A DNA stretch of 64,000 bases. Source: Bacteroidia bacterium. GTDB taxonomy: Bacteria; Bacteroidota; Bacteroidia; CAIKAF01. Made by a program: the position numbers and the translations under genes. Location: the NCBI GenBank assembly GCA_016742095.1, contig JACVCJ010000019.1, forward strand, positions 1 through 64,000. Reading direction: 5' to 3'. The notes beneath the pieces are model-generated. The model was not told the DNA's origin. It worked only from the letters and a program-made list of their open reading frames with translations, and searched no databases. Below are positions 24,053 through 48,874 of this stretch, piece by piece (the first letter of the stretch is position 1; each line of letters opens with the position of its first letter).

Positions 24053-24727
24053 TTATTTTTTCGGTGTAGCCTTCAGGTTCAGGTCGAACTCCACTTCGTT
24101 GTTGATCACACGGTCGCCCAGGATCTTCGGATCGAACTCCACAGAACCGTATTTTACGTTCCAGTCCTGGCGGTTGATATTGAATTTGGCAGCAGCCTCG
24201 AATTTGGTGCTGTCAATAACCACTTTCGACGGGATCGTGATATTTTTGGTGATGTCTTTAATGGTCAGGTTCCCCATTACGTCCACGCTGTCCGGGCTTT
24301 TACGCTTGGTTCCGGTGATCTCGAATTTAGCGGTGGGGTATTTGCTCACGTTAAAGAAGTGATCGGCAGCTTCGGGTTTGCCGGTACCTTTCAGGTGGGC
24401 TTCCAGGTCGGCCTTGCCGGTTTCGGGCGTAAGGTCGGTGCTCTGGATGGTTTCCATGTTGATGATGAAGTTACCGGCGGTAATTTCGTTGTTCTCTACG
24501 TTGATGGTACCTTCGCTCAGCTGTACGTTACCGTTGTGTCCGCCACCTACTTTTTTGGTCGCTTTCCAGTTCAGAACAGAACCGGCTGCGTCTACGGTAA
24601 AGGCTTTGCTTAATGAGGTTGCGGCAGCTACGTTCTGTGCTTCGCCCGCGTTATTGGCTTTATTTCCGCATGATGCAATACTGAATGCAACAGCTGCCAC
24701 GAATACCGGAATAGTTACTTTTTTCAT
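24053..24727 (-). CDS. YceI family lipoprotein
   Basis: Protein of 224 aa. ATG 24727 begins a lipoprotein signal (MKKVTIPVFVAAVAFSIASC) with the lipidated Cys at residue 20. The YceI lipocalin-like barrel follows (GSVLNWKATKKVGGGHNG, DLEAHLKGTGKPEAADHF, GNLTIKDITKNITIPSK). YceI proteins bind polyisoprenoid or similar lipids; here it would be attached to a membrane facing the periplasm. A cytosolic-looking paralogue is at 47050-47574. Confidence 0.88.
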   Translation of the reverse strand: MKKVTIPVFVAAVAFSIASCGNKANNAGEAQNVAAATSLSKAFTVDAAGSVLNWKATKKVGGGHNGNVQLSEGTINVENNEITAGNFIINMETIQSTDLTPETGKADLEAHLKGTGKPEAADHFFNVSKYPTAKFEITGTKRKSPDSVDVMGNLTIKDITKNITIPSKVVIDSTKFEAAAKFNINRQDWNVKYGSVEFDPKILGDRVINNEVEFDLNLKATPKK

Positions 24728-24891
24728 TTTCGTATTATAATTTCTGTGTTGCAAAGATTACAAAACAGAAGGCATACATTCTAACAGGTTCTGTATTTTT
24801 ACATGATAATCCGTAAAAAATTCACCATGTTGATTAAACCTGTCCCGACCGGGAATGTCCTATACATGAAACCGAACTAAAAAGGCTTTGC

Positions 24892-25407
24892 ATGCAGGAG
24901 AGAGATAAGGAAGCTTTGTTCGCCGGCTGGATGAGGGAATACACCCCGCAGGTATACGCCGTGGCGCGTAAGATGACGGGCAACCACCACGATGCCGATG
25001 ATATAGTGCAGAACGTGTTTGTGAAAGTGTGGCGGAATATGGACCGCTTCCGGAACGAAAGTAAACCCGGTACCTGGATATACCGCATCAGTATGAACGA
25101 AAGCCTGAACTACCTGAACCGGAAAAAACGCTTTTCCTGGCTGCGCTTTTCTGACTTCGGCAGTGAAAAACCCGGGGTGCCCGAAGTGGCCGACGAGCAG
25201 AAGACCGACTATTCGCAGCTGGAAGCGCACTTTGAAAAAGCCGTACAAAGCCTGCCCGAAAAACAGAAGGCCGTATTCGTACTGCGGTTCTACGAAGAAA
25301 AATCGTACGAGGAAATGGAAGAAATATTCGGCACCAGTGTAGGCGCGCTCAAAGCATCGTACCACCATGCCGTAAAGAAAATAGAAAAAATGATCGGCGG
25401 GGATTAA
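24892..25407 (+). CDS. ECF-type RNA polymerase sigma factor
   Basis: Sigma-70 family factor of 171 aa with only regions 2 and 4. Region 2 is DADDIVQNVFVKVWRNMDRF with WIYRISMNESLNYL; region 4 is LPEKQKAVFVLRFYEEKSYE and GTSVGALKASYHHAVKKIE. It leads a likely operon with a membrane protein that looks like its anti-sigma factor (48 bp on) and a Spy-like protein. No clear TAnnTTTG box is seen upstream, which would fit autoregulation, but this is unproven. Confidence 0.93.
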   Translation: MQERDKEALFAGWMREYTPQVYAVARKMTGNHHDADDIVQNVFVKVWRNMDRFRNESKPGTWIYRISMNESLNYLNRKKRFSWLRFSDFGSEKPGVPEVADEQKTDYSQLEAHFEKAVQSLPEKQKAVFVLRFYEEKSYEEMEEIFGTSVGALKASYHHAVKKIEKMIGGD

Positions 25408-25454
25408 ACCCGGCAACGAAACAAATGTCTTACTAATAACATACTCAACTTGCT

Positions 25455-25916
25455 ATGGACTTCGAAAATAAATACCGGCACCTGCGCAGCAACAAGGCCA
25501 ATATGCCCGAAGGCTACCTGGAAGAACTGCCGCAAAAGGTAAACCGTAAAAAAGAACTGAAAAAGGTATCGCTTACCCCGTATATCGTGGGTACAGGCAT
25601 CGCGGCCATGCTCATTATCGGGCTGTTCGTGGCGCTGCCCGGGAACGAAGATCCGGAAAAAGTGGCCCTTACCGATACCGTAAGCAGCGAAATGGCCGAC
25701 CAGTATGTACGTACCCTCATGGACGATGACAACCTGCTGGCCCAGAACACGGCCCCGGTTAAAAATACGGTGTCCGCCGACAGTCCCGGTACGGATATAC
25801 GCATACCCACGGTCGTACAGTCTGCCACAGCCCCGGCCGATGTATTTGCCGACAGCAGCTTCAGCGAGGACGAACTCTTTGAATACCTCCTGGAAGAAGG
25901 CTTTGAAGAAATTTAA
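25455..25916 (+). CDS. Putative anti-sigma factor (single-pass membrane protein)
   Basis: Protein of 153 aa. A charged cytoplasmic N-terminus (about 38 residues, including ENKYRHLRSNKANMPEGYLE) precedes one membrane helix (YIVGTGIAAMLIIGLFVAL) and an acidic periplasmic tail ending in SEDELFEYLLEEGFEEI. The topology and position directly after an ECF sigma gene are those of anti-sigma factors, although no zinc-binding HxxxCxxC motif is present. Function is inferred from context only. Confidence 0.6.
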   Translation: MDFENKYRHLRSNKANMPEGYLEELPQKVNRKKELKKVSLTPYIVGTGIAAMLIIGLFVALPGNEDPEKVALTDTVSSEMADQYVRTLMDDDNLLAQNTAPVKNTVSADSPGTDIRIPTVVQSATAPADVFADSSFSEDELFEYLLEEGFEEI

Positions 25917-25954
25917 TACATGCAACAAACGCTCCCCATATAAAACAAGATAGA

Positions 25955-26488
25955 ATGAAACAGAAAATCGTAATGATCGCAATGGTACTGATGTTACCAT
26001 TGGCCACTCTGATGGCACAGACACCCCAGGGCGAGGGCCCGGGCCGCGGAAAAGGTGAAAAATTCCGGGAAAAAGTGATCGAAATGCGTGTGAACTACGT
26101 AAAAGAGAACCTCGGGCTCAGCGACGCCCAGAGCGATAAGTTTATCCCGGTGTACAAGGAATATCTTCAGAAAGCGGCCGACCTCATCAAAGAATCCCGC
26201 GCTATTAAAAAAGAGCTGAAGGATAACTTTGAAATGAAGTCCGACCAGGAACTGGAAGTCCTGCTCCAGAAGCAGTACGACCAGGAACTGAAGCAGCTGA
26301 ACCTGAAAAAAGAGGCCCAGGATGCGTATAAAAAACTCATCCCGCTGAAAAAGGTAGCCAAACTGCAGTTGGTAGAAAAAGAATTTAACCGTACCATGCT
26401 CCGTAAAGCAGCCGAGCGTATGCGTAAACCCGGCGAGCCGCCTCATGCCCCGGCACCGCCGGCACCACCAGCCGGTGACGGAAAATAG
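25955..26488 (+). CDS. Spy/CpxP-like periplasmic helical protein
   Basis: Protein of 177 aa with a signal peptide (MIAMVLMLPLATLMAQ) followed by a highly charged all-helical body (VKENLGLSDAQSDKFIPVYK, ESRAIKKELKDNFEMKSDQE) and a Pro/Ala-rich tail. The pattern matches Spy/CpxP-like LTXXQ chaperones and Bacteroidota proteins that commonly accompany ECF sigma/anti-sigma pairs. It probably buffers envelope stress or senses misfolded proteins. It is third in the sigma operon, 38 bp after the anti-sigma gene. Confidence 0.7.
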   Translation: MKQKIVMIAMVLMLPLATLMAQTPQGEGPGRGKGEKFREKVIEMRVNYVKENLGLSDAQSDKFIPVYKEYLQKAADLIKESRAIKKELKDNFEMKSDQELEVLLQKQYDQELKQLNLKKEAQDAYKKLIPLKKVAKLQLVEKEFNRTMLRKAAERMRKPGEPPHAPAPPAPPAGDGK

Positions 26489-26561
26489 TACCGTTTGCTT
26501 AGACAGCCGCCCGATTTTGTAAAGTTTGCAATTTCGGGTGGTTTCTCTGACAATATTTAGG

Positions 26562-26569
26562 TAACTTTG
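26562..26569 (+). promoter_or_regulatory. -7 box TAACTTTG of a candidate non-coding RNA
   Basis: Exact TAnnTTTG match in the 412-bp gap. No coding frame follows; instead there is about 180 bp of hairpin-rich sequence ending in a strong terminator. A TTTC at 26542-26545 is a weak -33 candidate, with only 16 bp between. Confidence 0.6.
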
Positions 26570-26575
26570 TCGTTA

Positions 26576-26787
26576 TATTGAGAAATGAGCGGAGTCTTGT
26601 AAAACCGAAAAACGTACTCCGGCAAAAAAGGAAAGGGCCTTCACCCGGCCATATGCCCCCCACACCGGAAATACGCATTTCAGTTTTTCGTTAAGATAAA
26701 CTTTTTACAATTCAGCTTCCCTGGTTTCATAGTTTCTCGCTTACTTTTAACCATCCGTTTTGGTCCACCCCAAAACGGATTTTTTTT
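26576..26787 (+). ncRNA. Candidate structured small RNA, about 210 nt
   Basis: The stretch has its own -7 box upstream, no plausible ORF, and a perfect terminator at its end. By eye it can form a closing helix GAGAAA/TTTCTC (26580-26585 with 26733-26738) and hairpins CGGAGT/ACTCCG (26590-26595, 26616-26621), GGCC/GGCC (26636-26639, 26647-26650) and GAAAT/ATTTC (26668-26672, 26677-26681). The loop of the first hairpin carries CGAAAAAC (26606-26613), an exact complement of GTTTTTCG (26683-26690), which could make a pseudoknot or alternative fold. tmRNA, RNase P and SRP signatures were not found. A 6S-type or regulatory RNA is possible. The RNA start is inferred from the box. Confidence 0.5.
26753..26787 (+). 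terminator. Strong intrinsic terminator of the candidate RNA
   Basis: Perfect 11-bp stem ATCCGTTTTGG/CCAAAACGGAT (26753-26763, 26770-26780) with a 6-nt loop and seven Ts after the stem. The nearest upstream gene ends 264 bp before it, so it most likely ends a separate transcript. Confidence 0.85.
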
Positions 26788-26877
26788 GTCCGGGCCTTTT
26801 GTAAGCCTCGTCCGGAAAGGAATGTATTAGTTTTTTGTTAAAGCCCCGGCGCCATTCGGCAGAACCGTTGTATTTTA

Positions 26878-26885
26878 TAGTTTTG
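26878..26885 (+). promoter_or_regulatory. -7 box TAGTTTTG of the 26.9-kb gene
   Basis: Exact TAnnTTTG match, 15 nt before ATG 26901. It lies after the strong terminator, so this gene is transcribed independently of the candidate RNA. Confidence 0.6.
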
Positions 26886-26900
26886 TAAAAAAGAATCCGT

Positions 26901-29583: not shown

Positions 29584-29835
29584 ATGGGAAAAGGAGACAA
29601 AAAATCCGCTAAAGGAAAGCGGGCGAGGGGGTCGTACGGCGTACGCAGGCCCCGCAAGAAAGAAGCTCCCGCGGTTAAACCAGAACCTGCGATCAAAGAG
29701 CCGAAACCGAAGAAAGTGACGGAACCCAAAGCGGAAAAGACCAAGGCCGAAAAACCGGCCAAAGCCGCTGCTGATAAACCTAAAAAAACAAGCACCGCCA
29801 AAAAGACCAAAGAGCCTAAAGACGCTGCAGAATAG
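29584..29835 (+). CDS. 30S ribosomal protein THX with long basic tail
   Basis: Small basic protein of 83 aa. The first 28 residues (MGKGDKKSAKGKRARGSYGV then RRPRKK) match the THX family of Bacteroidota and Thermus, a peptide that stabilises the 30S head. THX is usually only 25-40 residues. Here about 55 further residues of Lys/Ala/Pro/Glu repeats (EPKPKKVTEPKAEKTKAEKP) follow, resembling histone H1-like tails. The frame is clean and is followed by a strong terminator. The tail is probably disordered and may bind nucleic acid. Confidence 0.82.
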   Translation: MGKGDKKSAKGKRARGSYGVRRPRKKEAPAVKPEPAIKEPKPKKVTEPKAEKTKAEKPAKAAADKPKKTSTAKKTKEPKDAAE

Positions 29836-45176: not shown

Positions 45177-45322
45177 AAAACAGGTTCCGGAGGCGGAGAA
45201 TAAAAAATTTAAGAAAAAATTAGCAAAAAAAATGCATCACCTTCGGATTTTTTAACTACTTTTACATCATGATAGTCGGCAACGACTTTTAACCAAGGCA
45301 GAGAGAAACCCAAACAAAGAAG
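45177..45322 (+). other. Intergenic stretch, possible short RNA
   Basis: This is the first part of a 308-bp gap. It is A-rich, with no ORF. A TACTTTTA box (7 of 8 matches) lies at 45257-45264, and a terminator follows at 45323, so a transcript of about 75 nt could start near 45270. Alternatively the acylase mRNA simply extends to that terminator. Confidence 0.3.
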
Positions 45323-45346
45323 AAGGGCTGTCCTTCAGCCCTTTTT
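45323..45346 (+). terminator. First of two tandem terminators after the acylase gene
   Basis: AAGGGCTG/CAGCCCTT (45323-45330, 45336-45343), with a 5-nt loop and a T run. Confidence 0.8.
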
Positions 45347-45371
45347 CCTGGTTGGGTCCACAAAATACTTT

Positions 45372-45402
45372 AAAGAGGCATCACTACGGTGCCTCTTTTT
45401 TT
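45372..45402 (+). terminator. Second tandem plus-strand terminator
   Basis: AGAGGCA/TGCCTCT (45374-45380, 45390-45396), with a 9-nt loop and a long T run. Only 25 bp separate it from the first terminator. Confidence 0.8.
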
Positions 45403-45428
45403 GTGTCTAAAAGCCTGACAGCGCGCAC

Positions 45429-48649: not shown

Positions 48650-48874
48650 ATGAAGAAATACACCAAATTTCGCAGTAGTTTCCGGTTTCCCAGAACGTCT
48701 TTTTTAACCGGAGCCGGCAGCGCTTTCAATATTGCCGGTAATTATTATCGTTTTACTTTTCCGGAAAATGCCGCAGAGGCCGATGCAAAAGCGTTGGAAG
48801 CAGACTGGAATGCCATCGGGAATGATCTGCGCAGGGCAATGGCCAGTTTCGATGAAATAGTGCAACGAGACTAA
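48650..48874 (+). CDS. Small protein of unknown function paired with a DUF2335 gene
   Basis: Protein of 74 aa. The segment SFLTGAGSAFNIAGNYYRFT is followed by acidic EADAKALEADWNAIGNDLRR. No signal peptide or membrane helix is evident. It lies 8 bp before the DUF2335 gene behind a good promoter, so the two are co-transcribed and probably act together. I do not recognise a characterised family. Confidence 0.7.
   Translation: MKKYTKFRSSFRFPRTSFLTGAGSAFNIAGNYYRFTFPENAAEADAKALEADWNAIGNDLRRAMASFDEIVQRD

Follow-up and report, generated by a model that had tools for sequence, protein, structure and literature searches.

The segment between positions 26574 and 26787 of the window (the whole stretch of 64,000 nucleotides of Bacteroidia contig JACVCJ010000019.1 that was analyzed) is, on the evidence of the sequence, probably a lineage-specific, separately transcribed gene for an intergenic small RNA (sRNA) of ~214 nt. 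This segment lies in a gene-free gap of 412 bp (26489-26900) with plus-strand genes on both sides, a gene for a 177-aa Spy-like protein, which is the last one of an ECF sigma-factor operon, upstream, and a gene for a 266-aa protein downstream. The initial annotation proposed a non-coding RNA gene with a promoter and terminator of its own, and both the position of the segment and the statistics of the promoter box support this as a prediction. The relevant features of the locus are as follows.

24892-26488, plus strand: upstream operon (Pfam matches on the sigma factor; same gene order in loci L023-L026 and L028)
24892-25407, plus strand: ECF-type sigma factor (Pfam Sigma70_r2 and Sigma70_r4_2)
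25455-25916, plus strand: 153-aa protein in the anti-sigma position (no Pfam match)
25955-26488, plus strand: 177-aa Spy-like protein (name taken from the initial annotation; no Pfam match)
26504-26543, plus strand: hairpin of 10 + 6 pairs, ~15 nt after the stop codon of the Spy-like gene (fold z -6.9)
26562-26569, plus strand: -7 box TAACTTTG (TAnnTTTG), the only one of 15 intergenic copies that does not precede a gene
26574-26787, plus strand: predicted non-coding RNA of ~214 nt between the box and the terminator, a single-copy segment without coding signal
26577-26733, plus strand: predicted body of the RNA, with a closing stem and two internal arms (minimum-free-energy fold of the single sequence)
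26753-26787, plus strand: intrinsic terminator with a stem of 11 perfect pairs at 26753-26780 and a T tract behind it, identified from the sequence
26878-26885, plus strand: -7 box TAGTTTTG (TAnnTTTG) that lies 16 nt upstream of the ATG of the 266-aa gene

The trio that consists of an ECF sigma factor, a small protein in the anti-sigma position and a Spy-like protein is kept across the family (24053-26488 in the window; L023-L026 and L028 in relatives). The divergent gene that adjoins this trio here as well as in L025 and L026 is presumably YceI-like.

The case for a separate promoter rests on the distribution of the TAnnTTTG pattern, which occurs in the window in 37 copies, 15 of them intergenic. 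Fourteen of these 15 lie 5-39 nt before the start of a same-strand gene, tRNA-Cys included, with two of the 14 counted only after the small ORFs behind them had been accepted (the genes of the window were called with a simple codon-usage script, and three missed features, namely tRNA-Cys and two small ORFs, were added). When the letters of the pattern were permuted (30 arrangements, the real one included), the mean numbers of gene-proximal and non-proximal intergenic sites were 1.6 and 5.5, respectively, so that the real pattern is depleted where no gene follows. Judging by this placement, TAnnTTTG has promoter function in this genome, which makes the sole non-proximal intergenic copy, the one at 26562, noteworthy. 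The -7 box reported at 26562-26569 in the initial annotation is present and, with 14 of 15 boxes being gene-proximal, significant in its context; a single orphan box could also be due to chance. There is no clear -33 motif upstream of the box, and, according to work cited in PMC7366714, such a motif is likewise not identifiable in Flavobacterium johnsoniae. Given that the Flavobacterium box spans positions -12 to -5 (PMC9723704), the predicted transcription start falls near 26574. Under the preferred reading, the housekeeping sigma factor would read the box at 26562, and transcription would start near 26574 and stop at the strong terminator near 26787, yielding the RNA of ~214 nt.

Two small ORFs that were missed by the codon-usage caller, 48650-48874 (74 aa) and 29584-29835 (83 aa), have a TAnnTTTG box 22-33 nt upstream and probably are real small genes.

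The perfect 11-bp terminator described initially is found at 26753-26780, where the stem ATCCGTTTTGG-TCCACC-CCAAAACGGAT is followed by eight T; among the terminators listed in its 10-kb stretch, this stem is the longest. Elsewhere in the window, the most stable intergenic fold (45257-45424, z -6.5) comprises consecutive terminator-like hairpins, two of which are followed by T runs.

No coding signal is detectable between the flanking genes, in agreement with the description of the gap as free of genes: the longest plus-strand ORF, of 38 aa and with a TTG start, has non-coding codon use (-0.25 per codon, compared with ~0 at the 5th percentile of true-frame stretches), and a small protein was rejected on this ground. 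A decayed gene was rejected because there is no translated similarity to the loci of relatives, and a repeated element because the genome contains one copy. As already noted in the initial annotation, tmRNA, RNase P RNA and SRP RNA signatures are missing from the segment, with no match obtained by Rfam or ARAGORN. By analogy with the Bacteroidota sRNA class, the RNA would most likely base-pair with mRNAs via its unpaired A-rich and U-rich stretches, and it is perhaps connected with the adjoining sigma/Spy-like operon; a scan for targets among the genes of the window, with up to 57 tests, gave no value more extreme than z -2.7.

The structure of the RNA beyond the terminator is weakly supported by fold prediction. 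The fold z of the predicted RNA is ~-4.2 with the terminator and ~-2.2 without it (4.5% of shuffles being as stable), and similar values are reached by several intergenic segments elsewhere in the window. Two internal complementarities had been emphasized in the initial annotation. The pairable ends of the RNA, GAGAAA at 26580-26585 and TTTCTC at 26733-26738, do exist, but a 6-mer end pairing is found in 11% of shuffles, which is near chance, and GAGAAA could pair equally well with another TTTCTC, which precedes the box at 26542. The 8-nt complement that was thought to suggest a pseudoknot or a switch between two folds also exists, with CGAAAAAC at 26606-26613 and GTTTTTCG at 26683-26690, but the two 8-mer complement pairs observed in the RNA are again near chance, at least two being present in 11% of shuffles, that is, about one in nine. 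Because these complementarities are near chance, a pseudoknot or switch has no support beyond chance.

Homologues of the RNA were sought in several ways. BLAST over 100 relatives, a single-sequence covariance model run on 40 relatives (16 of the same family) and the same type of model run on 295 genomes of the class all recovered the window itself only. Plasmids and phages contained no homologue, and an exact 35-mer search of viral contigs gave no match. Small BLAST matches were rejected as chance, the best one being located inside a coding frame of genome G014. Synteny followed via the 266-aa protein, the Spy-like protein and gltX revealed neither a shared RNA nor a close relative, gltX being at most ~62% identical to that of any named genome found. 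No conservation is therefore seen for the RNA, and in a comparison of the neighborhood of the gap with relatives, of the kind that the initial annotation had proposed as a check, no shared RNA was seen. These searches covered a genome set that contains no other genome of the same genus, the genome being isolated within Bacteroidia, and, as a single-sequence model is weak over long distance, distant homologues may have been missed.

The main rival of a separate sRNA gene, possible although unlikely, is a long 3′ UTR of the sigma/Spy-like operon, in which transcripts would read through the first hairpin to the terminator at 26753 and any sRNA would be processed from them. The hairpin at 26504-26543, which is equaled in stability by 0 of 200 shuffles, is probably the end or terminator of the operon; its U tail is weak (UUUCUCU), with no good U tract, so that read-through is possible, and the terminator at 26753 is the next good one downstream. 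Against a 3′ UTR, relatives with the same operon have a terminator or a close next gene directly after the Spy-like gene (in L023, L024 and L028, an intrinsic terminator occupies the place where the hairpin without a good U tract is found here), and a promoter box of a type otherwise depleted in such positions sits between the operon and the terminator. Behind the operon of these relatives, no RNA was found. With the upstream operon apparently closed by the hairpin and the downstream gene equipped with its own box, the segment resembles a unit of its own. Neither this hairpin nor the box of the downstream gene figures in the initial annotation. The same arrangement bears on the improbable case of a 5′ leader or riboswitch-like attenuator of the 266-aa gene, which would account for a structured RNA and a terminator in front of a same-strand gene and in which the complementarities could give alternative folds. 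Between the end of the terminator and the ATG, however, there are ~113 nt, and with a box of its own the gene does not need the RNA as its leader; furthermore, the orthologue of this gene in genome G005 lacks such a leader, Rfam yields no riboswitch match, and the complementarities are those found to be near chance. That the segment encodes no functional RNA at all, the box and the terminator having arisen by chance in a drifting spacer, is very improbable: the lack of conservation, the modest fold and the chance-level complementarities would fit a spacer of this kind, whereas the statistics of the box and the good quality of the terminator speak against it.

The suggestion that the RNA could be the 6S RNA of this lineage fails with the Rfam models (6S, 6S-Flavo and Bacteroidales-1) as well as with two Bacteroidia-wide models, and the hallmarks of 6S are absent. 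With the three Rfam models, no match in the window reached the gathering score, the gap gave none even at E values of up to 10, and the whole genome likewise contained none. The core model R1, built from the matches of two Bacteroidota 6S models in other families, detects new members outside its training set (L087-L090, 40-55 bits), as does the full-length model R3 (L183-L185, 60-71 bits), which was built from 11 sequences with the apical loops shortened for alignment. Of the 24 genomes of other families that were searched, 12 match R3 clearly; nine of these 12 contributed to the model (G023, G036 and G037 did not). The shared 6S structure is strongly supported, with 30 of 42 pairs varying on both sides and a covariation score of the R3 alignment of 0.585, against which shuffles score 0.25 and slid versions 0.19 at most. 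On the window RNA, R1 scores 11 bits only, and the 19.5 bits of R3 fall on the terminator alone. The inner-stem motifs of 6S, AACTCAAC, AACTTAAC and AACCTAAC (AACYYAAC/GRGUUU), do not occur in the gap, this motif being variable in a few true 6S members (a first, looser motif was too unspecific for use). Nor is there a 6S-type closing stem with a 3′ strand ending in a U tract, the ends of the window RNA being predicted to pair before a separate terminator hairpin. The three Rfam models, R1, R3 and the motif search found no recognizable 6S in the genome or in the 16 genomes of its family; the first look with R3 gave scores for just some of the candidates, and this result is therefore not proof of a missing 6S, which might be lost, highly diverged or passed over by the search filters. 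A 6S RNA diverged beyond recognition is the least probable of the readings considered here. A length of ~200 nt, ends able to pair and the lack of any other recognizable 6S in the genome or family speak for it; opposed to it are the low scores from models that reach further Bacteroidia families, the missing AACYYAAC, a terminator that is a hairpin separate from any closing stem, and same-family genomes without a copy, which is unexpected for a housekeeping RNA. It is highly improbable, too, that the RNA founds a new family of structured RNAs, restricted to an unsampled genus within an isolated family and possibly replacing 6S where none can be found.

The Bacteroidia 6S RNAs themselves (L007-L011, L032, L034, L036, L038, L087-L090 and L174-L185) share one covarying architecture, which combines a closing stem, CCCGCAU...AUGCGGGUUUU, that also serves as the terminator with the AACYYAAC/GRGUUU inner stem and unites the 6S-Flavo and Bacteroidales-1 families of Rfam. 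The models built here find members in families in which both Rfam models stay below their cut-offs. The 6S RNA of Bacteroidia is wider than the two separate Rfam families suggest, and this is the larger by-product of the analysis.

Among known systems, the 6S families (RF00013, RF01685 for 6S-Flavo and RF01693 for Bacteroidales-1) resemble the window RNA in length class and pairable ends, but the latter has neither the AACYYAAC...GRGUUU stem nor the closing stem that serves as terminator, and it is predicted to be branched whereas 6S is a single rod. Cis-regulatory leaders, such as riboswitches and attenuators, are similar in that a structured segment and a terminator precede a same-strand gene; here, in contrast, a separate promoter box precedes the downstream gene, and no Rfam riboswitch matches. 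In Bacteroides thetaiotaomicron, high-confidence intergenic sRNAs have been defined by a start site together with an intrinsic terminator, and 27 of the 49 are strain-specific (PMC7366714); independent transcripts of Flavobacterium psychrophilum have a median length of 176 bp (PMC9723704). The segment combines the features by which intergenic sRNAs are operationally recognized in Bacteroidota, namely a promoter box (with a predicted start), an intrinsic terminator and no coding potential; of the supporting feature, conserved sequence or structure, there is no sign among the 16 genomes of the family and the 295 of the class, the RNA being seen in itself only. GibS and other BTnc RNAs of B. thetaiotaomicron and the Rfp RNAs of F. 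psychrophilum, to which the window RNA, known from its sequence, was compared via Rfam only, are likewise intergenic, with a TAnnTTTG promoter and an intrinsic terminator, ~200 nt long, often strain-specific and devoid of coding potential (PMC7366714, PMC9723704). If transcribed, the predicted RNA would be one more orphan sRNA of a little-studied lineage, adjoining a conserved sigma/Spy-like operon, and most likely it is ordinary for this phylum, of a kind known from the transcriptomes of Bacteroides and Flavobacterium.
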